Made by a program: the position numbers and the translations under genes
The notes under the pieces: generated by a model
What the model was told of the DNA's origin: nothing
What the model saw: only the letters and a program-made list of their open reading frames with translations
Database searches by the model: none
Part shown: positions 29,398 to 55,347 of the stretch, in pieces
Numbering within the stretch: position 1 is the stretch's first letter
How the letters are laid out: the number at the start of each line of letters is the position of its first letter
IMG/VR virus record: IMGVR_UViG_3300032561_000021
Location: 1 to 62,191 of that record
From: a virus
Strand: one strand, 5' to 3'
DNA length: 62,191 bases

Positions 29398-30627
29398 ATG
29401 GCAATTGAACCACGCGGCATTTTTGTTAACCAACCCGACGGAACATGGGTTGAAGTATTACAACCCAAAGTTAAACAAAATTCAACATGGGCTAACGTTA
29501 GATACGGTTACACAAAAGTTGATGGCGATTGGAAATTATTTTTCCCTGCGAGCGGAACACAAGAATTTACTGAACCCGGCACATATACATTTACAGTCCC
29601 TGGCGGAATCTATAGCATTACTTTAGACGCCACTGGCGGTGGCGGTGGTGGCGGCGGCAGCACTGGACCAGCAAATAGCAATTCAGGACAAACGGTTGTT
29701 GATGGTACTACAGTAATTCCGGTTCAGTATTCCAATTTTGCAAACAATTCAGGGTTAAGTTTAGCCGTAGTAAATGAAGTAGCTTCATTATATACTACAT
29801 CTGGATTAATTTCGGGTGTATATGGATTAAATAGAAAACCTGAATCTGGTGGCTTGATTTATTGGATTCAACAATATATTATTCATGGCAATAGCTTATC
29901 GGCCATTGCTCCTTTGTTTAGTGCCGCAGCAATAGCCGAAGGTAGTGGCAATGATTACATAAATGCTACGCAAGGTCCAGCTGGTAACTTACCGTTTAAT
30001 GCTGGACCGTATCAAGGCGATTTTCTTGATATACCAGATCAGATAATTACTAGCTATAAAGACATAAATGATAACGGTGGCAACACAGGCGGCTCGGGAG
30101 CAGGAGGAGCAAGCGGATTCTTTAGTCAAAATAATACAATGACTGTAGTGCCCGGTGAAACAATAACAATAGTAGTTGGTACAGGTGGTCTTGGTGGGCA
30201 TATTGCTGGCAACGGACAACCCGGCAGTCAGACATACGTAGTTGGGCAAAATGGTTCGCGTATTTTCTCGGGCGGCCCCGGCGGTAATGGAAATCACGGT
30301 GTTTATATACCTCCACCACCACCCCCTCCACCATATGTTCCACCCCCACCCCCACTACCGCCATTTGTGTATCCACCGCCACCACCACCCCCACCCCCAT
30401 ATGTTCCACCACCGGTGGTTCCTCCTGTAGTGGTTCCTCCTGCACCTACACCCCCTCCTGCACCAATTCCTGAACCACCACCACCAGCAGATAGTGGTTC
30501 AGGCGACGGAACTGGTCCTGGTAGCAGCGATGGTGGAGAAGGCGACGGGAACGGAGACGGCTCGGGCGATGGTTCAGGCGATGGCGGCGATGGCGGAGGC
30601 GGCGGAGGCGGCGCAGGCGGCGATTAA
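29398..30627 (+). CDS. Glycine/proline-rich tail adhesin with DUF4214-like insert
   Basis: A 409-residue protein. Residues 1-75 form a small domain (RGIFVNQPDGTWVEV, YTFTVPGGIYSITLDATG) common at the start of Gly-rich phage tail proteins. Residues about 140-180 (GLNRKPESGGLIYWIQQ) resemble a DUF4214 unit. A Gly-rich section with TITIVVGTGGLGG follows. Residues about 305-365 are mostly proline, in blocks of up to nine interrupted by YVPPP. The last 45 residues are Gly/Asp/Ser. Such Gly-rich proteins act as distal adhesins in T-even phages. The final strand usual for the domain (NGYVKIYW) is missing but present in the 78-residue protein at 33528. The proline tract may be a substrate of the oxygenase encoded downstream. 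Confidence 0.7.
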   Translation: MAIEPRGIFVNQPDGTWVEVLQPKVKQNSTWANVRYGYTKVDGDWKLFFPASGTQEFTEPGTYTFTVPGGIYSITLDATGGGGGGGGSTGPANSNSGQTVVDGTTVIPVQYSNFANNSGLSLAVVNEVASLYTTSGLISGVYGLNRKPESGGLIYWIQQYIIHGNSLSAIAPLFSAAAIAEGSGNDYINATQGPAGNLPFNAGPYQGDFLDIPDQIITSYKDINDNGGNTGGSGAGGASGFFSQNNTMTVVPGETITIVVGTGGLGGHIAGNGQPGSQTYVVGQNGSRIFSGGPGGNGNHGVYIPPPPPPPPYVPPPPPLPPFVYPPPPPPPPPYVPPPVVPPVVVPPAPTPPPAPIPEPPPPADSGSGDGTGPGSSDGGEGDGNGDGSGDGSGDGGDGGGGGGGAGGD

Positions 30628-30628
30628 A

Positions 30629-30680
30629 ATAATTTCCCGGGCAACTTGTTACGTAAATAATAACAAACCCTGGAAATTAT
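30629..30680 (+). repeat. 52-nt inverted repeat directly before a start codon
   Basis: Outer arms ATAATTTCC (30629-30637) and GGAAATTAT (30672-30680) are perfect complements. Inside them GGG/CCC and TTGTTA/TAACAA can also pair, giving a long interrupted stem that ends at the base before ATG 30681. The only ribosome-site-like GGA lies in the 3' arm. It may be a terminator after the adhesin gene, a translation switch, or both. Confidence 0.6.
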
Positions 30681-31388
30681 ATGTCTACACTAACCAATTT
30701 TTTAGAATTGCCCCGAAAATACAAAAAACAGCAAAATATATCAAAATTTGATTACCATGCTGTTTTTGATATTTCAACCTATCGTATTGTTTCTGTTTCG
30801 CGTAATATATCCAGTGTTAAAAAAATTAATGACAGTATCCTAAATACTGGACTATTCCTGTTTTTAAATAACTATTCATTACCTGCAGATTTTAATAATC
30901 TGGCTCCGTACTGTTCCCAAGTTAACGATCCCTATGGGCAATCCTCTATCAGTAGTTCAACTACAGTACTAAACGACGACGATTTGGAATACTACGCTTT
31001 GATAACAGAAAAAGGGTTCGCACTTGAGTATCTACTAAACACTATAGCAAATCATCGTAGACGACAATATTCTAGTACTATATTACAATACGAAGTTTAT
31101 GCAATGAAACACCAAGAAGCACAACGAGTATTATCAACAGGCGCAACAGAATTAGATGAGCTTAACTATCCGTTTGTGACGGATTATGCTCAACTTGAAA
31201 ACTTGTCTCTAGTAGAATCGGCAAAAGAAATATCCTTCCAGCATAACTTATTCTATACAAAAATGTCAACGATAGAATCGATGAGATTGCGTTATAGTAA
31301 ACAGATAATTGAATGTGATAACATTACTCAAATACCAGCTATTGTAGCAGATTTCTTAAACCGGAGTCGTTTGTATGCAATATCCTAA
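30681..31388 (+). CDS. Protein of unknown function between adhesin and PP-loop genes
   Basis: A 235-residue soluble protein that I do not recognise. It starts MSTLTNFLELPRKYKKQQ and has no signal peptide or membrane segment. The second half is helical and charged, with YAMKHQEAQRVLSTGATELD, then YPFVTDYAQLE and MSTIESMRLRYSKQIIE. This mix resembles small tail-fibre assembly or virion-associated proteins, but no family motif is certain. Its start abuts a 52-nt inverted repeat and its end overlaps the PP-loop gene by 14 bp, so it is probably translated as a unit with it and the oxygenase. Confidence 0.6.
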   Translation: MSTLTNFLELPRKYKKQQNISKFDYHAVFDISTYRIVSVSRNISSVKKINDSILNTGLFLFLNNYSLPADFNNLAPYCSQVNDPYGQSSISSSTTVLNDDDLEYYALITEKGFALEYLLNTIANHRRRQYSSTILQYEVYAMKHQEAQRVLSTGATELDELNYPFVTDYAQLENLSLVESAKEISFQHNLFYTKMSTIESMRLRYSKQIIECDNITQIPAIVADFLNRSRLYAIS

Positions 31389-32490
31389 GTTAAATTGGTA
31401 TTACAGTATAGACTTAGTAACAGATACTACCAACAAACAGTATAGAGATCTTCCGGGATTTGCTAATTACAAAGATATACATAAATTTTTTGCAGCCAAT
31501 TTAAGTTTAACAGACAGATATCAAACAACTCAATTACCTATACAAACCAATATACTTGATGTTTGCAAACCGCCAGCATTTGTTAAACAAACCTTAGAGT
31601 ACGACGAAATATGTTTGTTTCGTGCCAAGCAGTTAATGAATCATGCTATTAATACAAATAGAAAACTGTTTATTATGTACAGTGGGGGAATTGATTCATC
31701 TGCAATTATTTGCAGTTTTCTATTGGCATGCACCCCAGACGAAATTAAAAATAATATTGTAGTGGGATTGTCAGAATCCAGTATTAAAGAAAATCCTATA
31801 CTATACAAAAAATTCATAGTTGGTAAATTTGAACGAGTTTCAAGCAATGTATTTTCGTACTACCTGGGGCATCCTGATTATATTACTATCAATGGGGAAG
31901 GTAACGATCAGCTATTTGGATCAGACCTAATACAAAGTTTGACTCTCAGATTTGGAGAAGGAATATTACATACACCTCGCACTGATGCAATCATATACGA
32001 TTGTTTTAATAATGGATCTATATCTGCAAAGACCTGCGATAAATTCATTGAAGTATTTAACAAGGCAACTAGCCGCGCCCCTGTTGGTATAGATACAGTA
32101 TTCCACTATTTTTGGTGGATTAATTTTCAATACAAGTGGCAAAATGTTTATATGCGTATGTTGTCATTTGCCAAGGCTGAAAACGTCAGCGCAATTAAAC
32201 CAAATGATAATTATTTTTCGTTTTTCCAAACAGACGAGTTTCAGTTGTGGACGTTAAATAATACTAACAGCTTAATCAAAGACACATGGAAATCCTACAA
32301 ATATGTATGCAAGGACTTTATCTATTCTGTTACTAACGATGCTAACTACCGAGATAGAAAATCAAAGTTTGGTAGTCTTAGCCAAGTGACAATGTATAAG
32401 CCAGTATTTCATACTATTGATGAAAACTTTGTACCAAGCAATACCCCAGTAGATACAGCATATTGGAATATGCAGAATGATTTTATTTAA
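31375..32490 (+). CDS. Asparagine-synthase-like PP-loop ATP pyrophosphatase
   Basis: A 371-residue protein. The PP-loop is YSGGIDSSAI at residues 102-111 (SGGxDS), and GEGNDQLFGSD near residues 174-184 matches the second conserved block of the asparagine synthetase C domain (GEGxDELFG). There is no N-terminal glutaminase domain; residues 1-95 are unlike it. Relatives adenylate a carboxylate and form an amide, or modify peptides and nucleosides. It lies between an unknown gene and a 2-oxoglutarate oxygenase (TAATG overlap), all inserted between two pieces resembling one tail adhesin. It might amidate the adhesin or a sugar; the substrate is not shown. Confidence 0.75.
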   Translation: MQYPKLNWYYSIDLVTDTTNKQYRDLPGFANYKDIHKFFAANLSLTDRYQTTQLPIQTNILDVCKPPAFVKQTLEYDEICLFRAKQLMNHAINTNRKLFIMYSGGIDSSAIICSFLLACTPDEIKNNIVVGLSESSIKENPILYKKFIVGKFERVSSNVFSYYLGHPDYITINGEGNDQLFGSDLIQSLTLRFGEGILHTPRTDAIIYDCFNNGSISAKTCDKFIEVFNKATSRAPVGIDTVFHYFWWINFQYKWQNVYMRMLSFAKAENVSAIKPNDNYFSFFQTDEFQLWTLNNTNSLIKDTWKSYKYVCKDFIYSVTNDANYRDRKSKFGSLSQVTMYKPVFHTIDENFVPSNTPVDTAYWNMQNDFI

Positions 32491-33482
32491 TGACTATACA
32501 AACATTTGAAAATTTCTTACCTGCACAGTTAATTGAAGGAGTAGCAGATCAGATAGACAGTATTGGACATCGTTACGGGTGGAAGTCTAATCCTAAATTT
32601 GACCAATATCACTGGAATTGCGATCTAGCCAAAACAGGCGGTATAATGAATGGCATAGACATATCTGCAGAACTTGATGGGGTAGCATTGGAATGCTGGC
32701 GCCACATACAGCAAAACTATTTCCCAAATACAGTATTGTTACGTTGTTATTCAAATGCACATACCTACGGTGTTGAAGGATATCCGCATACAGATTCTCG
32801 TAGACCCCAAGATCAAACCATTGTGGTGTATCTAAATAAACAATGGCGCAGAGAATGGGGCGGAGAAACAATGATATACAATGGGCAGGATATTGCTAAT
32901 GCAAGTTTGCCGGCATACAATCGTGCTATAAGTTTTCCCGGGATGTCTTGGCACACAGCTCGGGGTGTATCTAGAGTATGTAAAGTGCTACGAACTACGT
33001 TGATGTTTAAATTTGCTCCTGCTGATAGCGACCCAACGAGAGATAAAATACAACAATTTTTACAATCACTTGGTACAGATACCAAAGCACATTCAGGTCG
33101 TACACTTTTTGTTCACTTGTTATCAGTATATGACTTATTAAAATTAGCTGGGCAAGATGAAATTACATGCTGTGCTGGCGCAGTCCATAGTATTTTTGGA
33201 ACAACTGCATTCACTGATCAAACACTCACATTGGATGATCGTAAACAAGTAATTGATATAGTTGGCGCACGTGCCACTGAACTTGCTGCAATATTTTCAC
33301 GTTTAGATAGACCATTGGTATTAGAAAATTATTTAACTACAGGTGCAAGTACAGGATTCAACGACGAAACAACCCGCATTTTATGCGCTATTGAGGGAGC
33401 GAATTTATACGATCAAAAAGCACTAACTTCGTACCCAAAATTAAAGGAATTTTGGAATAATATTTTTAAGTATGACTGTTAA
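32490..33482 (+). CDS. Prolyl-4-hydroxylase-like 2OG-Fe(II) oxygenase fused to a DUF6817-like domain
   Basis: A 330-residue, two-domain protein. Residues about 1-180 have the 2-oxoglutarate oxygenase iron triad: YPHTDS (H100, D102) and SWHTARG (H155), with a following Arg in LRTTLMF that can bind 2-oxoglutarate. The spacing and GGETMIYN segment match the prolyl 4-hydroxylase/PHD group. Residues about 188-330 contain LFVHLLSVYDLL, then CCAGAVHSIFGTTAF, similar to the HD-like DUF6817 domain. Domain fusion with this partner is unusual. It lies three genes after the polyproline adhesin, so hydroxylation of those prolines is an attractive but unproven role. Confidence 0.75.
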   Translation: MTIQTFENFLPAQLIEGVADQIDSIGHRYGWKSNPKFDQYHWNCDLAKTGGIMNGIDISAELDGVALECWRHIQQNYFPNTVLLRCYSNAHTYGVEGYPHTDSRRPQDQTIVVYLNKQWRREWGGETMIYNGQDIANASLPAYNRAISFPGMSWHTARGVSRVCKVLRTTLMFKFAPADSDPTRDKIQQFLQSLGTDTKAHSGRTLFVHLLSVYDLLKLAGQDEITCCAGAVHSIFGTTAFTDQTLTLDDRKQVIDIVGARATELAAIFSRLDRPLVLENYLTTGASTGFNDETTRILCAIEGANLYDQKALTSYPKLKEFWNNIFKYDC

Positions 33483-33527: not shown

Positions 33528-33764
33528 ATGTCAGGAGTTAATAATCCAGGTCACCCGGGCTCGGGACAAAATGGCGGAGAAGGCGGTGCCACACCGTTTG
33601 GTGCAGGCGGAACACCTTCTATGACTGATGGAAATAATGCAACAGGCGCAGGCGCAGGTGGCGGCGGTGCAGGAGATACTATTTCTGCAATAGGCGGCAA
33701 CGGCGCCAACGGATACGTAAAAATCTACTGGGGTCCAAATAATGACCCAAATTGGGTTACCTAA
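33528..33764 (+). CDS. Small glycine-rich tail protein, like a detached adhesin C-terminus
   Basis: A 78-residue protein with over one third Gly. It ends GGNGANGYVKIYWG, the closing strand typical of Gly-rich phage tail adhesins (NGxVxIxW). It starts at ATG with a clear AGGAG ribosome site and has a variant late promoter upstream, so it is probably expressed. The adhesin at 29398 lacks just this closing segment. The two may come from one ancestral gene split when the unknown/PP-loop/oxygenase genes were inserted, or this may be a small partner. Confidence 0.65.
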   Translation: MSGVNNPGHPGSGQNGGEGGATPFGAGGTPSMTDGNNATGAGAGGGGAGDTISAIGGNGANGYVKIYWGPNNDPNWVT

Positions 33765-38568: not shown

Positions 38569-38883
38569 ATGAGCGAACTCGAAAAACTTACAGCTGAAAT
38601 TAAATTAGCAACTGATTACCAGATTAATAAACGTATCCTGCGTGAGAAGATCCAAACGGACTTGCACATAGCACACAAGGGAGGCTTGTTTAAGATTACT
38701 CCCGAGCTGTTGGCATTTATGCAGGGTTGGCCCATTGATGATATGTATTTAGAAGATACATATGGCAATCCTATACAAATTGATCGTCATGTATTTCTAG
38801 TAATAGCCCAACAACACTATCAAAAAGTAATGAACACGTGGCATCAACAACATGAAGAACTCAAAAAAATCCGCCGAGTCTAA
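38569..38883 (+). CDS. Small phage protein of unknown function
   Basis: A 104-residue protein, the first gene after the sigma70 promoter. It begins with a charged helix (MSELEKLTAEIKLATDYQ), has DLHIAHKGGLFKITPELL and MYLEDTYGNPIQIDR in the middle and ends in a helix with HQQHEELKKIRRV. No signal peptide or known motif. The helix-strand-helix form resembles small proteins in T4-like phages without known role. It overlaps the glycosyltransferase-like gene by 32 bp, so both are probably made together. Confidence 0.65.
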   Translation: MSELEKLTAEIKLATDYQINKRILREKIQTDLHIAHKGGLFKITPELLAFMQGWPIDDMYLEDTYGNPIQIDRHVFLVIAQQHYQKVMNTWHQQHEELKKIRRV

Positions 38884-39670
38884 GGGTGTTGTAGTATTTG
38901 CATTTAACACACACATAGACTACGTTGCTATAGCTGATCAGACTAGTCGTTTAATTGCACACTCTCTGAACTTACCTATTACGTTGGTCACTGACAACGA
39001 TAGTGACCCTAAGTTTGTATACGATAATATCGTACGCATCAACAATAATGATGGAAATAATTTTATAGGTAGTGATACAACAAAACAGTGGCGAAACTTT
39101 GGCAGATACCTAGCATATGACCTGAGCCCGTACGATAACACTATTCTTATTGACACAGACTACCTTGTATTAGATGATAGCCTTCTTACATTATTTAAAA
39201 CAGACTTTGATTATCGGCTAATGCATCATAATCAAACACCTGCAGGACCTAGTCCAGAATCAATGGGCGAAACAAGTTTGCCATTTGTATGGGCAACTGT
39301 AGTACTTTTTAGAAAGACAGAACGTGCAAGATTATTTTTCAACCTTATCGGCCGCATACAAAGAAACTATTCGTACTATCGTGCCTTATACAATGTTCGC
39401 GAAAGAAATTACAGAAATGATTATGCTTTTGCTATTGCTAATTGTATTATCAGTGGCTACACGTTAAACGAACAGCAAGGAATTCCTTGGACAATGTTTA
39501 CCATAGAAAAAACTATTAACCGCATAATGCTCACAGACAATTTTATACAAGTCTATCACGACGGCGAAGCTACCATGGTACCATACCAAAACATACACGT
39601 GATGGATAAAGAATACCTACAGAGTAGAGACTTTGAACAAGTAGTGGAGGCCATCTGTGAGCCAGCATAA
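38852..39670 (+). CDS. GT-A fold glycosyltransferase-like protein
   Basis: A 272-residue protein. It starts with a Rossmann-like strand (GVVVFAFNT), has LPITLVTDND near residue 45 and a metal-binding DTD (D101-D103) in ILIDTDYLV, as in nucleotide-sugar glycosyltransferases with GT-A fold. FVWATVVLFRK follows where the acceptor site is expected. Family cannot be fixed (GT8-like layout). It overlaps both neighbours (32 and 14 bp) and has a sister gene next to it. It probably adds a sugar to a phage or host product; donor and acceptor unknown. Confidence 0.7.
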   Translation: MKNSKKSAESKGVVVFAFNTHIDYVAIADQTSRLIAHSLNLPITLVTDNDSDPKFVYDNIVRINNNDGNNFIGSDTTKQWRNFGRYLAYDLSPYDNTILIDTDYLVLDDSLLTLFKTDFDYRLMHHNQTPAGPSPESMGETSLPFVWATVVLFRKTERARLFFNLIGRIQRNYSYYRALYNVRERNYRNDYAFAIANCIISGYTLNEQQGIPWTMFTIEKTINRIMLTDNFIQVYHDGEATMVPYQNIHVMDKEYLQSRDFEQVVEAICEPA

Positions 39671-40514
39671 AGAACAACAAGGTTTTGTAACCTTTGCTAT
39701 CAACAACACAGATACCGATTACTTAGAACTTGCATACTTGCAATGCCTAAATGTTAAGGCAACACAGAAGCACAACAAGTATGCGGTCTTGGTTGATACA
39801 GAAACATTGAACTCGGTAACTGATCGACAGCGTCGAGTATTTGATTACATTATTGAATTAGATAATGTAAGTAGTGAACACGCAGATGGATCTATATATG
39901 CCTGGAGCAAGGAACCTGATGTTTTTCGCAAAACTCCGTTTAAAGAAACTATCAAGTTGGAAGCAGACTTGCTGTTTACTAGGTCAATTGACCATTGGTG
40001 GACGGCATTTAGATTACGTAATGTTTGTTTAAGTACAGGCGCACTAAATTATCGTTCGTTAAAAAGTGATGTGCGAAAATATAGAGAAGTATTTGATGCC
40101 AATCAACTGCCTGATGTGTATAATGGCCTGATGTATTTTAGATACAGTCAAGAAGCTGCGGCCTTTTTCAATCTAGCCGGGCTTATTTTTCATTACTGGG
40201 CGGACATATCTAAAGAGTTAAAGACATGTGAAGATGAACCAAGCACAGATGTTGTATATGCTATAGCCGCACGGATACTAGGAGAAGAATTAGTAACTAT
40301 GCCTAGCATGGACTTTATTAACTTTGTGCATATGAAATCTGGATTTAATAAATGGAGTGATGCACGTAGTTGGATAGAAACTGTTATGGCTGAACACGAC
40401 GGCGATGTTATTCGAATTAACAATATAAATCAACTCAACCCTGTACATTATCACGAAAAGACCTACGCTACTCACGAACTAATCAAATACTATGAATCCA
40501 GAATACCTAGCTGA
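39657..40514 (+). CDS. GT-A-like protein with altered DxD (sister of the preceding gene)
   Basis: A 285-residue protein starting at GTG 39657, chosen because GTGGAGG sits 6 nt upstream and no ATG is near. It shares layout with the preceding protein: GFVTFAINN, a strand HNKYAVLVDT, and KLEADLLF where the metal site would be; the DxD is replaced by EAD. LPDVYNGLMYFR resembles the acceptor segment of the sister. It could be a divergent or inactive glycosyltransferase. Overlaps of 14 and 23 bp link it to its neighbours. Confidence 0.6.
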   Translation: MSQHKEQQGFVTFAINNTDTDYLELAYLQCLNVKATQKHNKYAVLVDTETLNSVTDRQRRVFDYIIELDNVSSEHADGSIYAWSKEPDVFRKTPFKETIKLEADLLFTRSIDHWWTAFRLRNVCLSTGALNYRSLKSDVRKYREVFDANQLPDVYNGLMYFRYSQEAAAFFNLAGLIFHYWADISKELKTCEDEPSTDVVYAIAARILGEELVTMPSMDFINFVHMKSGFNKWSDARSWIETVMAEHDGDVIRINNINQLNPVHYHEKTYATHELIKYYESRIPS

Positions 40515-40845: not shown

Positions 40846-41722
40846 TGTAGCAGACTTAGACTGCATTTACTTGACCTATGATGAACCTAATAAAGAACAA
40901 AACTGGATACATATACAAAATATGGTCCCTTGGGCAAAACGAGTGGACGGCGTTAAGGGTTCAGATGCTGCACATAAAGCAGCCGCTGATGCGAGTGACA
41001 GTGATCGCTTTGTACTTATTGACGGCGACAATATTCCAGATCCTGCTTTCTTCAATCTCCAACTCACATTAGATGATAATAACCGAGATTGTGTATTTCG
41101 GTGGAAAGCTCGTAATATCGTTAACGGCCTTTTATACGGTAACGGGGGAATGAGTTGCTGGACTAAAGACTTTATCTACAATATGCGTACACATGAAGCA
41201 ACGGATGGCACAGCAGAGAACGATGTAGAGTTTTGTTTTTATCCTAACTACTGGGCAATGAATGATTGCTACTCAACTACATTCCCTAACGCTACTCCTT
41301 TCCAAGCATGGCGAGCCGGCTTCCGTGAGGGTGTAAAGATGGCATTAGACCGTGGAGCAAAAATATCTGCAGCAGAATTTGAAAAGCGAGTTCATGGTCG
41401 CAACTATGATCATTTGTGTGTTTGGCAAACAGTAGGAGCAGATGCAGACAATGGTTTCTGGGCTATATACGGAGCACGTCTTGGCACATACATGATGATG
41501 TTAGAAGGATGGGATCATCGTCAAGTACAAGACTTTGACACGCTTGCTAAGTTGTGGGAAGTATTTAAAGATGATGATCAAGATGCATGTAGACGTATAG
41601 GCAGTACGCTACGCACACGCTTGGGATTGCCTATTGTAGACATGGACGCAGAAGAAAGCAAATTCTTTAAGCATCATTACAAAGCAGTATTTAAAAACTT
41701 AGGACCAATGGCACGTGAGTAA
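40826..41722 (+). CDS. Phage GT-A-like glycosyltransferase
   Basis: A 298-residue protein. It starts LDCIYLTYDEPNKEQNW, followed by AKRVDGVKGSDAAHKAA and FVLIDGDNIPD with a DGD metal motif (D66, D68). WKARNIVNGLLYGNGGM follows. I associate the series YDEPN, VxGVxG, DGD and N-x-LxYGxGG with a glycosyltransferase-like family common in T4-like phages. The C-terminal module of the 1013-residue protein at 58151 is homologous (EPDEERW, VRGVNG, NPVNGLEYGHQG) but lacks DGD. It is followed, with an 8-bp overlap, by the radical SAM array. Confidence 0.7.
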   Translation: MPTEIIDVADLDCIYLTYDEPNKEQNWIHIQNMVPWAKRVDGVKGSDAAHKAAADASDSDRFVLIDGDNIPDPAFFNLQLTLDDNNRDCVFRWKARNIVNGLLYGNGGMSCWTKDFIYNMRTHEATDGTAENDVEFCFYPNYWAMNDCYSTTFPNATPFQAWRAGFREGVKMALDRGAKISAAEFEKRVHGRNYDHLCVWQTVGADADNGFWAIYGARLGTYMMMLEGWDHRQVQDFDTLAKLWEVFKDDDQDACRRIGSTLRTRLGLPIVDMDAEESKFFKHHYKAVFKNLGPMARE

Positions 41723-43100
41723 ATCAGATTTTATGGCATCGGCAGAGTTTATGAAGGACAACTTAGGTCCTGCACTCTGTTTAGCCAAATGGAAGCAAGT
41801 AAGCCTGCACTTACCAACAGGACTTAATAACTCCTGTTACCATCCGCCACTACATCAAATTGATGCAGACGCACTTAAAGACAATCCTGGCGCATTACAT
41901 AATACTGAGCATAAGAAACAACAACGTGTTATCATGCTCAAACAAGAAAAACCTAGTGAGTGTAGTTATTGTTGGAATATAGAAGCACACGGCCAATTAA
42001 GTGATCGTCATTATAGATCCGGTGAGCCCTGGGCAGCAAGTGATTACGATGCAATCATAAACAGTACCGGAGAAGAAAATGACGTTATTCCTAGTTATGT
42101 GGAAGTTAATTTTAACCACGCTTGCAATTTGTCTTGTAGTTACTGTAGCCCGCAGTTTAGTTCAACTTGGCAAGCAGAAGTTGATAAGTGGGGAGGATAT
42201 CCTACAAGCACTATTCATAACGATAGCAGTCACTTTACTGGTCGTAACCGTCCTATACCTAGTCGCGACACCAATCCCTATGTTGATGCATTTTGGCAGT
42301 GGTGGCCCGAGCTGTACCCAAAACTAAAACATTTCCGTATGACCGGTGGTGAACCGCTAATGGATAAGAATACATACAAAGTATTTGACTATGTATTAGC
42401 ATTACCCAATCCCGAACTACACTTAAACGTAACCAGTAACTTTAGTGTGGAGCCAGCATTAATGGAGAAGTACTTAGGTTACGTTAAGCAACTTTGTAAT
42501 ACCCAAATTGAACACTTCATGCAGTTTGTTAGTTTGGATTCCGGAATTCCTGCACATGCCGAATATATCAGGCACGGGATGAATGCAAATCGTGTGGTCG
42601 ACAACGTAGAACGTTTCTTAACAGAAATTCCATATCGCAATAGTTTGACATTTATTATTACAATGAATAATTTAAGTGTATTAGGAATACAACGTCAGCT
42701 AGATTATATACTAAGTCTACGTAGAACACACAGTACAACATATCAGCGTGTCTGGTTCGATACTCCCTTACTACGCACACCTACATGGCAAAGTATACAG
42801 ATACTACCTGAAGTATATGTAGGTGTACTAGAGCGTGTAGCAGACTGGATGGAACTCAATTTAGAAACCGCAGATAAACCATTCCAAGGATTTAAAGATT
42901 ACGAAGTACAACGTATGCGTCGTGACATAGACTGGATGCGAGAAGGTCGTAATTTAGACCCAAACTATGTTAAACTACAAAGAGCAGATTTTTATCGTTT
43001 CTTTAATGAACACGATAAACGTCGCAAGACTAATTTTTTAGAAACCTTTCCTGAAATGAAAGAGTTTTGGAACGAATGTAAATACCATGCCCAGAATTAA
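41715..43100 (+). CDS. Radical SAM protein, long type with N-terminal Cys-rich module
   Basis: A 461-residue protein starting at GTG 41715, overlapping the previous gene by 8 bp. The radical SAM motif is C137-x3-C141-x2-C144 (ACNLSCSYC) and the SAM loop reads MTGGEPLM. Before the core lie C22, C41 in SCYHP and C83/C86 in ECSYCW, a likely auxiliary FeS site placed N-terminally; in standard SPASM proteins it follows the core. The next protein has the same plan. The C-terminal end (FLETFPEMKEFW) recurs in the neighbouring proteins and may be an interaction tail. Substrate unknown. Confidence 0.85.
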   Translation: MSKSDFMASAEFMKDNLGPALCLAKWKQVSLHLPTGLNNSCYHPPLHQIDADALKDNPGALHNTEHKKQQRVIMLKQEKPSECSYCWNIEAHGQLSDRHYRSGEPWAASDYDAIINSTGEENDVIPSYVEVNFNHACNLSCSYCSPQFSSTWQAEVDKWGGYPTSTIHNDSSHFTGRNRPIPSRDTNPYVDAFWQWWPELYPKLKHFRMTGGEPLMDKNTYKVFDYVLALPNPELHLNVTSNFSVEPALMEKYLGYVKQLCNTQIEHFMQFVSLDSGIPAHAEYIRHGMNANRVVDNVERFLTEIPYRNSLTFIITMNNLSVLGIQRQLDYILSLRRTHSTTYQRVWFDTPLLRTPTWQSIQILPEVYVGVLERVADWMELNLETADKPFQGFKDYEVQRMRRDIDWMREGRNLDPNYVKLQRADFYRFFNEHDKRRKTNFLETFPEMKEFWNECKYHAQN

Positions 43101-44436
43101 TAACGAAACAGATTTTGAATACAAGCGCAGAGTAATTGACATCAAGTCAGAAAGCTTCTGTGGCGCCAAATGGTACAACGCTACTATATGGCTGGGATCA
43201 GGGCAGACTACTAGTTGTCATCATCCCTTACCGCACCAAGTTAGTATAGCAGATGTTCAAGCAAATCCTAAAGCATTACATAACACAGCTAAGAAGAAAT
43301 CTGAACGTGCAATGATGCAAAAAGGCGAACGCCCTGCAGGTTGCGAGTACTGCTGGAAGATAGAAGACATTGGCCGCGATAACATTAGTGATCGTGTTTA
43401 CAAAACAGTTATATACGAAGACAAGGATTTAGATGATGCGTTCAACTTGGATAGCAATGCAGACGTGGATTTGCAAACACTTGAAATTGCCTTTGACCGC
43501 ACCTGCCAGTTTGCTTGCTCTTACTGTAATCCGGCGTTTAGTAGTACTTGGGTTAAAGATATCAAGCAGAATGGTCCTTATACTAATCTTACTAGCGACG
43601 GTCGTAATCACTTTACTCACATACATGATAGCAGTCAGTTATACCGCTTTGGAGAAGTTAATCCGTATGTTGAAGCGTTCCACAAATGGTGGGAAACCGA
43701 CCTGCACAAAACATTAAAAGAACTACGTGTCACTGGCGGCGAACCGCTCATGTCCGGTGATACATGGAAGCTATTAGATTGGTTTAAGACCAACAAGGGT
43801 AAGAGTAATACACGCTTGGCATTTAACAGTAACTTAGGCACAGATGTTGATGTTGATCGGTTACTAGCAAGCATTGATGGAGTAGTATTTGATCTTTACA
43901 CCAGTAACGAAGCAATGAATCTGCAAGCAGAATATATACGTGATGGCCTAGTATTTGATGATTGGGCAAACAATGCTGAGAAATTAATGACGTCGGGTAA
44001 ATTGCGTGGGTTTCATGTGATGTGTACAATTAATGCATTGTGTTTAGATTCATTGGATAGTTTCCTGGAATGCATGATGAACTGGAAACGCGAATATGGA
44101 AAAGACTTCCCTACATTTTCGCTAAATATATTACGCTTTCCAAGTTTTCAAAGTCCATTAGTTCTTCCAGATAATATTCGTACACACTTTAAAATTCGTT
44201 TGCAAGATTGGCTCGATACCAATTGCAATGATCCTATGCTTCACGAGTTTGAACGCAATCAATTGCAACGCTTGATTGATTATCTTGATGTGGTTAAAAC
44301 ACCGCACATGGGCGCAGCAGAACAATCAGTACTACAGCAAGACTTTAAACAATTTTACATACAATATGATCAGCGTCGCGGTAAGAACTTTGCAGACACA
44401 TTTCCTATATTAGCCAATTGGTACAATTCAATATGA
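43087..44436 (+). CDS. Radical SAM protein, long type with N-terminal Cys-rich module
   Basis: A 449-residue paralogue of the preceding protein. Radical SAM motif C140-x3-C144-x2-C147 (TCQFACSYC), SAM loop VTGGEPLM, N-terminal Cys at C25, C44 (SCHHP) and C86/C89 (GCEYCW). The stretch PAFSSTW after the core matches PQFSSTW of its sister. The end reads FADTFPILANWY. It overlaps its neighbours by 14 and 4 bp. Two such similar enzymes side by side point to duplication followed by specialisation, or to a heteromer. Confidence 0.85.
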   Translation: MPRINNETDFEYKRRVIDIKSESFCGAKWYNATIWLGSGQTTSCHHPLPHQVSIADVQANPKALHNTAKKKSERAMMQKGERPAGCEYCWKIEDIGRDNISDRVYKTVIYEDKDLDDAFNLDSNADVDLQTLEIAFDRTCQFACSYCNPAFSSTWVKDIKQNGPYTNLTSDGRNHFTHIHDSSQLYRFGEVNPYVEAFHKWWETDLHKTLKELRVTGGEPLMSGDTWKLLDWFKTNKGKSNTRLAFNSNLGTDVDVDRLLASIDGVVFDLYTSNEAMNLQAEYIRDGLVFDDWANNAEKLMTSGKLRGFHVMCTINALCLDSLDSFLECMMNWKREYGKDFPTFSLNILRFPSFQSPLVLPDNIRTHFKIRLQDWLDTNCNDPMLHEFERNQLQRLIDYLDVVKTPHMGAAEQSVLQQDFKQFYIQYDQRRGKNFADTFPILANWYNSI

Positions 44437-45761
44437 CAGACAATACAGTAGCAGGATTTTACGATAAAGGGTACGACTATAATGCACGTGCTCCGTATTT
44501 CATTGAACGCAGTGAATTAACAGAAGACGAATATCGTAAACTAACACACAGTGACACATTCTGTATGTTACCATGGATGCACATGCATGCCTTTCCGGAT
44601 GGTCGGGTGTATCCTTGCTGTTTAGCAGACTACTGGCACCCTGTCGGAGACCTGCGTAAGAATACAATGAAGGAAGTATGGAATCAAGACAAGTACAAGA
44701 CTATGCGTAGCAATATGCTACAGGATAAACCTTGTGTTGAATGTACCAAGTGCTACGAGCAAGAGAAGCACGGTGCGTTTAGTATGCGTAACGATGCTAA
44801 CCGTAACTACGGGCATATGATCAAAGAGATAAAGGACACCAAAGATGATGGCACACATGAAGAATTCAAGATTCGTTATTGGGATGTGCGTTTTAGCAAT
44901 CTCTGCAATTTCCGCTGCCGTTCCTGCGGTCCTATTTTCAGCAGTAACTGGTACAACGATCATGTTAAGTTATACAAGCGTGTACCCGATGTTCTTGGTC
45001 GCGACATGGCACGAGTGGAATATGCTACAGGAACAGAAGATGGCATGCTTGAACAAATGGAAGAACATATCCCCCACCTAGAGCAAGTGTACTTTGCTGG
45101 TGGCGAGCCGCTGATTATGAAAGAGCATTATTACTTGCTAGAGAAGCTAATTGACGCAGGTAAAACAGATATTCGTTTACAGTACAATACAAACTTTAGC
45201 GAAATGCGCTATAAAGATAAACACGTATTTGAATACTGGAAACACTTTAAAAACGTAAGTGTTGGTGCTAGTTTAGATGGCATGGGCCCACAAGCAGAAT
45301 TAATACGCAAGGGTGCAGACTGGAAGCAAACAATAGAGAACCGCGAACGCATGATGAAGGAAGTCCCGCACGTGGACTTTTATGTTAGCTCCACAGTTAG
45401 CTCCATGAACATAATGCATGTATTAGACTTTCACAAAGAATGGACAAAGTTGGGATTGATTCAAGCAAAGGATTGGAATATCAATATTTGCCAAAGTCCC
45501 GAGTGGTATCGTTGTGATATATTTCCCCAGGAGTTCAAAGAGCGTGTAATCTATCCTGCATATGAAGAACATATTGCCTGGCTAGATCCACAGGATACGT
45601 TACGTAGAGCAACCACTGGGTATCAGAGTTTGTTAAGTCTAATGAAAGACAATCATGCTACGGAACACTGGCCACGTTTTGTAGAAGAAACACGTGTATT
45701 AGATGAATTACGAAAAGAAAGTTTCTGGGACTTATTTCCAGAGTTTAAAGAATTGCAATGA
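44433..45761 (+). CDS. Radical SAM protein, long type with N-terminal SPASM-like module
   Basis: A 442-residue protein. ATG 44433 overlaps the previous stop as ATGA, the favoured start; a TTG 15 bases upstream is in frame but not needed. The N-terminal module reads CMLPWMHMHAFPDGRVYPCC (C44, C62, C63), then CVECTKC (C101, C104, C107), very like a SPASM cluster site. The radical SAM motif is C158-x3-C162-x2-C165 in LCNFRCRSC and the SAM loop FAGGEPLI. SPASM normally lies after the core; here it precedes it. The protein ends FWDLFPEFKELQ. It is followed by an ATGA overlap. Confidence 0.87.
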   Translation: MTDNTVAGFYDKGYDYNARAPYFIERSELTEDEYRKLTHSDTFCMLPWMHMHAFPDGRVYPCCLADYWHPVGDLRKNTMKEVWNQDKYKTMRSNMLQDKPCVECTKCYEQEKHGAFSMRNDANRNYGHMIKEIKDTKDDGTHEEFKIRYWDVRFSNLCNFRCRSCGPIFSSNWYNDHVKLYKRVPDVLGRDMARVEYATGTEDGMLEQMEEHIPHLEQVYFAGGEPLIMKEHYYLLEKLIDAGKTDIRLQYNTNFSEMRYKDKHVFEYWKHFKNVSVGASLDGMGPQAELIRKGADWKQTIENRERMMKEVPHVDFYVSSTVSSMNIMHVLDFHKEWTKLGLIQAKDWNINICQSPEWYRCDIFPQEFKERVIYPAYEEHIAWLDPQDTLRRATTGYQSLLSLMKDNHATEHWPRFVEETRVLDELRKESFWDLFPEFKELQ

Positions 45762-53268: not shown

Positions 53269-53891
53269 TCTTAACAGTAGGCGATAGTTTTACATATGGT
53301 GAAGAACTGACTAACAGAACTTTGGATGCATGGCCGTATGTATTGTCTCGATTATTAAGCAATGAAGTATTAAACTTAGGTAAAGGTGCTGGTAGTAATC
53401 AATATATAGTTCGCACAGTAATCGAAGAAACTGCTAAACAAAAGTTTGATTTAGTTATCATTGGGTGGAGCGATACTAGCAGAATTGAAACGTGGACTAA
53501 CGGTATGCCTATTTGTATTAATCACAATGGCCGTCGCGGTATACCGTGGGTACCAGCATATTACAAGTACAGCTATGATGAAAAGTTTAGTTTTCGCACA
53601 TGGTTTACGCAGGTATTAGTATTACAACAATATCTAATTAGTATCAATCAACCGTATTTATTTGTAAATGTTGCAGGATTGCAAGGTCACTTTGAATTAT
53701 ACAAAGATGATTTTTTGTTCTTGTGGGACAAATATAAAGTTGAAAATTATGTAGGTTGGCCAATTAATGGCATGTTAGAGTTTCAGGGCGATTGTCCCAA
53801 AGGTCCAGGCGGTCATCCTCTAGAATTAGGACACGAACGAATAGCAGAAAAAATCAATGAACATATTAGGAATCTCGGCTGGCTTCCATGA
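53265..53891 (+). CDS. SGNH/GDSL-like hydrolase family protein
   Basis: A 208-residue protein and a close relative of the one at 4808. It begins ILTVGDSFTYGEEL (compare GCSFTYGDEL). GAGSNQYIVRT and GWSDTSRIE are the Gly and N blocks. The last block is GGHPLELGHERIAEKI, lacking the usual Asp. Its start overlaps the microprotein stop as ATGA and its 3' end overlaps the carbamoyltransferase by 35 bp. Probably co-translated with both. Confidence 0.75.
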   Translation: MILTVGDSFTYGEELTNRTLDAWPYVLSRLLSNEVLNLGKGAGSNQYIVRTVIEETAKQKFDLVIIGWSDTSRIETWTNGMPICINHNGRRGIPWVPAYYKYSYDEKFSFRTWFTQVLVLQQYLISINQPYLFVNVAGLQGHFELYKDDFLFLWDKYKVENYVGWPINGMLEFQGDCPKGPGGHPLELGHERIAEKINEHIRNLGWLP

Positions 53892-55347
53892 TGCTGCCGC
53901 TACAGTATTAAACAATCAAGGTGAAATCTTATTTGCTGGGCATTCAGAACGCTACAGCAGAATCAAGAACGATCCCAACATTGACACAGGACTTATTGTA
54001 GATATCCGCGGCTACTGTAGTTATAACGATATTGAATCGATTGCCTACTACGAAACTCCCTGGAAGAAACAACTACGACAATTATACAGCGGGCAAGGCT
54101 TTGAATGGAATAAACTAAGTGCTCGTCGGATTGTGCAGGATCAACTACACTCAATGCTAACACACAAGGTTCCTGTTATTACTTGCAATCATCATTTAAG
54201 TCACGCGGCCGCAGGATTCCAAACAAGCCCATTTGATCGTGCTACAGTGGTTGTTATTGATGCTATAGGTGAATGGGACACTATCAGTATTATTGGTGCA
54301 GAGTATGTTGATGGTCGTGCAACATATAAAGTGTTGTGGAAGCAAAAATATCCGCATAGCATTGGGCTATTTTATAGTGCAATGACACAAGAAGCAGGAC
54401 TAAAGCCCAACGAAGATGAATACATCTTAATGGGCATGAGCGCATATGGTAGTCGGGTAGCAAGCGCCTGGATGAAGATGCGGTTAGTGGCCGATGAGAA
54501 TGAAGTGATATTCAGAGAAAACTTACATACCGGATCCAATTACGAGTGGGGCAGACATTTTGACGACAAAGACGTTGCCAGTTCTGCACAGGATTTATGT
54601 GAGAATTTGATATATAATGTAATGCGTCGTGCAAAGGATTTTAACTGGAGCACGAACTTGTGTTACATGGGCGGTGTTGCCCTTAACTGTTTAGCTAATA
54701 GAAACCTCGGTGAGTATTTTGAAAAAATTTGGATCATGCCTAATCCTGGCGATGCTGGTAGTAGCCTTGGTGCAGCCGCGCTTGCTTACGGCGGACGAGT
54801 TGAGTTTAAAGACGCATTTCTTGGTACAGACATTAGCGGACCGTACCCTGTCAATGCCGTCCTTGATAGTTTACTCAGCGATAAAATCACTGGAGTTGCT
54901 TCCGGAAGAGCAGAATTTGGACCCAGAGCTCTCGGCAACCGAAGTCTCCTTGCCGACCCAAGAGGACCCGATATAAAGGATCGAGTAAATGCAATTAAAA
55001 AACGACAAGAATTTAGACCTTTCGCCCCAATTATTTTGGAGGAGCATGTTAATGATTATTTTAATATGCCTCGTAGCTTCGTTAATACTAGGTATATGCA
55101 AGTCATCGGTACTTGTCGGTATCCTGACTTATTTCCTGCTATCGTTCATTATGATGGGACTAGTCGTATACAGACAGTACCAAAAGATGGTTCGGGAATC
55201 CGCGAACTACTAGAAAAGTGGTATGTGGTAACAGGCTGTCCTATGTTACTTAACACTAGCTTAAACATCAAAGGCGAGCCATTAGTAAACACCCGTGCAG
55301 ATGCTGAAGCATTTGAAAAACATTATGGAGTAAGAGTACATTCCTAA
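53857..55347 (+). CDS. NodU/CmcH-type carbamoyltransferase
   Basis: A 496-residue protein. N-terminal Kae1-like domain: ILGISAGFHDAAA, HHLSHAAAGF near residues 112-121 with metal-binding His, VVVIDAIGEWD and PHSIGLFYSA. C-terminal YrdC-like-associated region: GRAEFGPRALGNRS near residues 350-363, then RQEFRPFAPIILEE and PMLLNTSLNIKGEP. These are hallmark motifs. The family uses carbamoyl phosphate and ATP to put a carbamoyl group on sugars or antibiotics. It probably decorates the glycan made by the island. The last codons are duplicated as part of a 20-bp tandem repeat and a homing endonuclease follows directly. Confidence 0.92.
   Translation: MNILGISAGFHDAAATVLNNQGEILFAGHSERYSRIKNDPNIDTGLIVDIRGYCSYNDIESIAYYETPWKKQLRQLYSGQGFEWNKLSARRIVQDQLHSMLTHKVPVITCNHHLSHAAAGFQTSPFDRATVVVIDAIGEWDTISIIGAEYVDGRATYKVLWKQKYPHSIGLFYSAMTQEAGLKPNEDEYILMGMSAYGSRVASAWMKMRLVADENEVIFRENLHTGSNYEWGRHFDDKDVASSAQDLCENLIYNVMRRAKDFNWSTNLCYMGGVALNCLANRNLGEYFEKIWIMPNPGDAGSSLGAAALAYGGRVEFKDAFLGTDISGPYPVNAVLDSLLSDKITGVASGRAEFGPRALGNRSLLADPRGPDIKDRVNAIKKRQEFRPFAPIILEEHVNDYFNMPRSFVNTRYMQVIGTCRYPDLFPAIVHYDGTSRIQTVPKDGSGIRELLEKWYVVTGCPMLLNTSLNIKGEPLVNTRADAEAFEKHYGVRVHS

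Follow-up and report, generated by a model that had tools for sequence, protein, structure and literature searches.

What is a 2-oxoglutarate (2OG) oxygenase doing between the two pieces of a phage tail adhesin? The question is raised by the virus record IMGVR_UViG_3300032561_000021, which was analyzed over its entire length of 62,191 bases (the window). Here, a glycine-rich adhesin gene with a long proline tract is followed, as third gene downstream (behind 30681-31388 and 31375-32490), by the oxygenase. A first-pass annotation had proposed that the phage hydroxylates, and possibly glycosylates, the prolines of its own tail fibre. We favour another target. With a probability of about one half, the enzyme takes part in a tailoring, probably a hydroxylation, of the glycine/aspartate-rich (Gly/Asp) tail of the adhesin, in the manner of ribosomally synthesized and post-translationally modified peptides (RiPPs); the adhesin itself would consist of two chains and the prolines would act as spacer. 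The features on which this proposal is built are the following:

29398..30627, + strand: first piece (N-half) of the split glycine-rich tail adhesin, 409 amino acids, made up of an N-terminal part, a glycine-rich part, the proline tract and the Gly/Asp tail (weak PF21722 and phrog_863 matches; synteny with intact adhesins of relatives encoded in a single open reading frame)
30307..30486, + strand: proline tract, probable rigid spacer (amino acids 304-363, 41 prolines in 60 residues)
30487..30624, + strand: Gly/Asp-rich C-terminal tail, proposed substrate of the oxygenase (amino acids 364-409, 46 residues rich in Gly, Asp and Ser; like tails beside the oxygenase in unrelated proteins)
32490..33482, + strand: 330-amino-acid fusion of a 2OG-Fe(II) oxygenase (amino acids 1-181) and an HD-like DUF6817 domain (amino acids 190-274), based on Pfam, NCBIfam, conserved residues and predicted structure
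33528..33764, + strand: C-half of the split adhesin, 78 amino acids, with its own AGGAG ribosome-binding site (phrog_863 535-603, E 1e-4; aligns to the C-terminus of the intact L042 adhesin, E 0.006)

The C-half, the DUF6817 half of the fusion, the Gly/Asp tail and an asparagine-synthetase-like (AsnB-like) gene had been left out of the first-pass annotation. Based on its alignments, the reading frame at 33528-33764 is the end of the glycine-rich adhesin, and consequently the three intervening genes sit within the adhesin locus. The matches to glycine-rich families (Pfam and PHROG) break between the two adhesin frames, with the N-half aligned to phrog_863 at 398-441. Its match to PF21722 (Gly_rich_2; model positions 26-115) reaches 18.6 bits and thus stays below the gathering cut-off of 24.3, which several relatives pass at the syntenic place of the adhesin. 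Such relatives were collected with a 229-amino-acid neighbour protein as query, and the best 80 of 444 matches were compared. These 80 loci share the order of a large structural gene, the 229-amino-acid gene, a fibre, the adhesin, further fibres, transferase-like genes and radical SAM genes, and in most of them the adhesin is one glycine-rich frame. In L009, L012, L013, L015, L049 and L052 it is split by a different payload, a C-terminal domain plus a frame of 69-147 amino acids. The adhesin locus serves as a site for variable cassettes. None of the 80 loci carries the oxygenase there, if the near-identical phage is set aside, whose contig L007 ends before the insert.

Given such variability, one might speculate that an adhesin gene was disrupted when the three genes inserted as a mobile element, both frames being remnants of it. 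The lower G+C content of the insert (0.353, compared to 0.487 for the adhesin) and the different payloads found at this site among relatives fit to this scenario. However, the arrangement with a separate C-half recurs in eight lineages with the oxygenase and in several with other payloads, the C-half of the window has its own ribosome-binding site, and every frame is open. We therefore regard a broken gene as very unlikely. Outside the window, the C-half is assigned mostly by position and composition: BLAST against intact adhesins gave significant matches for the window, L009 and L052 only, and a Pfam search with the C-halves of relatives returned no adhesin family.

The evidence that carries the proposed tailoring of the Gly/Asp tail comes from the oxygenase's relatives, which were gathered by alignment-based scans, two over viral contigs and a third over genomes; many of them have DUF6817 either fused or as next gene. 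Eight lineages of one phage family (the window, L091, L093, L187, L189, L195, L199 and L201) have the oxygenase between the two adhesin halves, the seven besides the window as the only gene there. By a fixed rule, a Gly/Asp block that closes the N-half or lies close to its end was found in seven of the eight, compared to none of 41 glycine-rich adhesin frames without oxygenase (p 9e-8). L201 is a borderline case with two Asp where the rule needs three, and L189 was scored on the stretch before its Hint domain. In this lineage the Hint domain directly follows the Gly/Asp block, and its cleavage could expose the block. A long proline tract, in contrast, occurs in only two of the eight N-halves (the window and L189), again compared to none of the 41 (p 0.02). 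Thus the tie between oxygenase and adhesin that had been proposed before has good support from eight split loci and from the prolyl-hydroxylase-like fold, while proline as the substrate is not well supported.

The pairing extends beyond this phage family. Where the upstream gene could be seen (34 clusters), it ends in a Gly/Asp tail in 13, compared to 1 of 791 other frames from these loci and 0 of 1525 frames from control loci; examples are GGGDGGGGGGDGGAG (L094), DTGDGDTGDGDTG (L101), DGADGADGADGG (L196) and DTGDTGDTGD (L198). Elsewhere (L182-L186, L191, L200) the block resides in the downstream gene instead, in the form GDGGGGDGGGG and in several cases with long DDS/DDA repeats. If both sides are considered, a block of Asp and small residues was detected in an adjacent gene of 20 out of 37 distinct clusters of 2OG oxygenase and DUF6817, compared to 19 of 1857 control frames. 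The control sets stem chiefly from one phage family and from cyanophages, and the same-locus control covers composition. Except for L091/L093 and L094/L095, the tail-bearing proteins compared (the window, L090-L102, L176, L173 and L096) are mutually dissimilar. Among cyanophage and related loci without the DUF6817 fusion, a Gly/Asp tail was found in 0 of 67.

A further occurrence is bacterial. In Paraburkholderia oxyphila (L176:2031-4650), a 119-amino-acid precursor-like protein with a Gly/Asp tail is followed by a radical SAM/SPASM protein similar to DynA and YhhB, by a 2OG oxygenase and by DUF6817. This is an apparent RiPP cluster, and the bacterial relatives thus seem to point to peptide tailoring; a precursor-like peptide and a putative maturase are neighbours of the oxygenase in L176, but not in the window. 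This repeated siting beside Gly/Asp-tailed proteins, in unrelated phages as well as in a bacterial RiPP-like cluster, bears on a second alternative, in which the oxygenase acts on a host or phage protein other than the adhesin, or on a small molecule, and is only a passenger of the variable locus. Some observations fit to this: a prolyl 4-hydroxylase (P4H) of Pseudomonas putida has a structure with bound EF-Tu (PDB 4iw3), cyanophage 2OG oxygenases have been interpreted as contributing to a modulation of 2OG levels (PMC3037559), and by fold the HD-like domain comes closest to alarmone hydrolases. With the recurrent siting speaking against it, we consider a target outside the adhesin unlikely.

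The oxygenase half of the window enzyme passes the gathering score of PF13640 (33.9 bits against 27; E 6.5e-8), and the HxD...H triad together with the 2OG-binding Arg (H100, D102, H155 and R168) is invariant in 7 of 7 full-length sequences. An intact triad three genes behind the adhesin, as described before, was thus recovered, and so was a fold of prolyl-hydroxylase type: in the AlphaFold model (pLDDT 91), the predicted fold is nearest to PHD2 and to bacterial 2OG oxygenases including a P4H of Pseudomonas putida (Foldseek against PDB, E about 1e-7). However, identity to these enzymes is 13-17%, the TM-score (target) is 0.5-0.6, the fold is common to oxygenases of many substrates, and the window enzyme in addition carries the HD-like domain. 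By sequence, the best NCBIfam families are FlmC (NF052475; E 1.5e-21, 77.3 bits) and YhhC (NF041706; 28 bits). The family name of YhhC itself denotes a peptide-modifying enzyme; for FlmC this was concluded from the name of FlmE, a peptide maturase. The two resemble the window enzyme further in that a relative in L176 has a precursor-like peptide and a radical SAM/SPASM protein as neighbours, while they differ in lacking its fusion to DUF6817 and in that its proposed substrate is a tail adhesin instead of a small peptide. Within the literature searched, queries for DUF6817 and for FlmC together with 'oxygenase' found nothing.

The second half of the fusion passes the gathering score of PF20680 (61.9 bits against 25.2; E 6.4e-17). 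The position of the HD metal motif is His-Ser in 19 of 19 aligned members, so that the test for the His-Asp pair of HD hydrolases and of diiron oxygenases (PhnZ/MIOX type) failed, and the nearest folds, the alarmone hydrolases, came with a non-significant Foldseek E of 0.07. A two-step oxidation of the PhnY/PhnZ type (2OG oxygenase plus HD diiron enzyme) was rejected on these grounds, PhnZ being merely a weak fold match.

The proline tract itself is not a product of chance. At least seven prolines per 20 residues occur in 9 of 1220 comparison frames, and the maximum in the window adhesin is 16. All four proline codons are used (CCA 22, CCT 10, CCC 6, CCG 3), thus the tract is kept at the protein level and is no simple DNA repeat. 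Its position agrees with the earlier 30310-30490 to within a few bases. Its exact length depends on a single assembly: in one other assembly, contigs L007 and L002 of a near-identical phage break off on either side of the proline and Gly/Asp stretch, and a 35-base probe over its start matched no other viral contig, in a scan from which the window's own record was possibly absent. Should the oxygenase hydroxylate this tract, stiffening it or creating sugar sites, the PHD2- and P4H-like fold would be explained, as would the common locus of tract and enzyme and the enrichment of the tract beside the oxygenase; moreover a second lineage, L189, holds a proline-rich stretch, and L199 has one in its C-half. 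Against this stand the lack of a long tract in six of the eight oxygenase-bearing N-halves and in most other 2OG-DUF6817 loci, the tail fibres without such tracts beside the cyanophage relatives (none was found in those examined), the many substrates served by PHD2-like folds, and the closest named families, which are RiPP maturation oxygenases and not prolyl hydroxylases. A consistent pairing with a proline-rich substrate was tested and failed, with 2 of 8 split adhesins and few other clusters showing it. Consequently, proline as the feature shared by all loci was rejected as a general rule, and for the window it appears quite improbable.

The suggested glycosylation of hydroxyproline fared worse, as no specific support for it was found. 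The transferase-like genes nearby (38852-40514) have no Pfam match and are kept in most relatives that lack both proline tract and oxygenase; a sugar transfer through these genes was therefore rejected.

How might the tailoring of the Gly/Asp tail proceed? The virion would carry a two-chain glycine-rich tail-tip adhesin, of which chain 1 comprises the glycine-rich part, a stiff proline spacer and the Gly/Asp tail, while chain 2 (78 amino acids) would complete the end of the glycine-rich fold. The genes in between would form a tailoring cassette of a 235-amino-acid helper, an asparagine-synthetase-like ligase and the 2OG oxygenase fused to its HD-like domain. The oxygenase would hydroxylate residues of the Gly/Asp tail as RiPP-maturation oxygenases do, probably Asp at the beta carbon, since Asp is the constant component of the blocks besides small residues. 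Hydroxylated residues, or carboxylates of the tail, may then be targets of the HD-like domain and, as far as this phage is concerned, of the AsnB-like ligase, and the fibre tip would present the modified tail for binding to surfaces. For the AsnB-like gene there is a precedent in the nitrilobacillin (pes) pathway, where an AsnB-like enzyme modifies the C-terminus only once Asp has been beta-hydroxylated (PMC13060819). However, its Asp hydroxylase is an MNIO and not a 2OG oxygenase of the present fold, and its product is a small peptide.

Several points weigh against this proposal. The evidence is one of association, and the rules were fixed after the first examples had been seen, so that the p-values are descriptive. 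The FlmC and YhhC scores are far below the curated cut-offs of 240 and 150 bits. For 17 of the 37 clusters, the fixed rule detects no block in a neighbouring gene, although some of their contigs end there and L195, L199 and L201 are near-misses. Proline-rich stretches are enriched near the oxygenase as well, with further cases in the L199 C-half, L173 and L103. The AsnB-like and 235-amino-acid genes stand beside the oxygenase in this phage only, within its family. Finally, some Gly/Asp tails belong to phages of high G+C content, in which tails of low complexity may occur more often; the same-locus control (1/791) speaks against such a compositional explanation. As an observation on its own, the L199 C-half (L199:11024-11413) ends in a proline tract followed by the Gly/Asp tail PPPVVPPPPPNPPPYNGDSGGAGGDGGGTD.

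Whether tailed phages in general tailor the Gly/Asp tails of their own adhesins in RiPP style, by a 2OG oxygenase and DUF6817 with an optional AsnB-like enzyme, is a wider proposal that we put forward tentatively, at somewhat less than even odds. It would imply, for example, hydroxyaspartate on the virion and a block that moves among non-homologous tail proteins. If true, a group of phage 2OG oxygenases whose PHROG bears the label 'DNA endonuclease V' would gain a testable substrate and DUF6817 its first context, receptor-binding tips of phages could bear enzymatically made residues that are invisible to sequence, and a chemistry known from antibiotic peptides would take place on a virus particle.

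Comparable systems share parts of this arrangement. The P4H of chlorella virus PBCV-1 is a virus-encoded 2OG oxygenase assayed on peptide substrates and thought to modify proteins of its own virus (as cited in PMC9301287). However, it belongs to a eukaryotic virus, whereas the consistent neighbour of the window enzyme is a Gly/Asp block. The 2OG clusters behind the short tail fibre of cyanophages (Kyanoviridae) are alike in oxygenase superfamily and in their position beside tail fibre and chaperone genes, but mostly single-domain and, as described above, without Gly/Asp tail. The annotation 'DNA endonuclease V' of cyanophage 2OG-Fe(II) oxygenases (phrog_274) appears to be an error that has spread between records. 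Glycine-rich tail-tip adhesins (phrog_863, PF21722) are likewise glycine-rich, located beside tail fibres and variable between relatives, while the window adhesin comprises two frames with enzyme genes between them and remains under the PF21722 cut-off. Presumably, it resembles tail-tip adhesins of the gp38 type.

The two remaining genes of the cassette are:

30681..31388, + strand: 235-amino-acid protein (phmmer E 9e-5 to L213:3962-4876)
31375..32490, + strand: 371-amino-acid asparagine-synthetase-C-like ATP-pyrophosphatase (PP-loop SGGIDSSA and GEGNDQLFG, recognized by eye)

The C-terminal part of the 235-amino-acid protein resembles the C-terminal extension of a DUF6817 protein on a Polaromonas plasmid (L213) that adjoins a 2OG oxygenase; a curated family match was not obtained, phrog_8983 appearing at E 0.07 only. 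For the AsnB-like protein neither a Pfam nor a PDB sequence match was found, but a relative lies near a pair of 2OG oxygenase and DUF6817 in L104 (28% over 163 amino acids). A tblastn search of isolated phages with the adhesin and the AsnB-like protein gave no match. On Caballeronia and Paraburkholderia plasmids (L214, L215), a domain similar to the C-terminal region of the 235-amino-acid protein precedes a 2OG oxygenase/DUF6817 pair, followed by TcpQ and CAP-domain genes, and L214 encodes a PilV shufflon pilus-tip adhesin about 4 kb from the pair.

Other payloads of tail adhesins were observed as well. The domain in L009, L012, L013, L015, L049 and L052 begins with GGGG-CCVISSALAEK or GGGG-IICTKLYELG, and its companion frame of 69-147 amino acids is sometimes repeated past the C-half. 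Hint/intein-like domains lie within or at the end of adhesins in L048:12261-13229, L051:12715-14919 and L189:8738-9967. The adhesin L034:12306-16058 bears a subtilase domain (PF00082), and the N-terminal part of L093:7264-10002 looks protease-like by eye, with no Pfam protease match. Further downstream, the window encodes at least three radical SAM proteins between 41715 and 51539 (PF04055 at 41715-45761; one with SPASM; two of three under the Pfam cut-off) besides similar-looking frames; many family members that lack the oxygenase have a radical SAM relative, too. At 53857-55347 the window encodes a NodU-type carbamoyltransferase.

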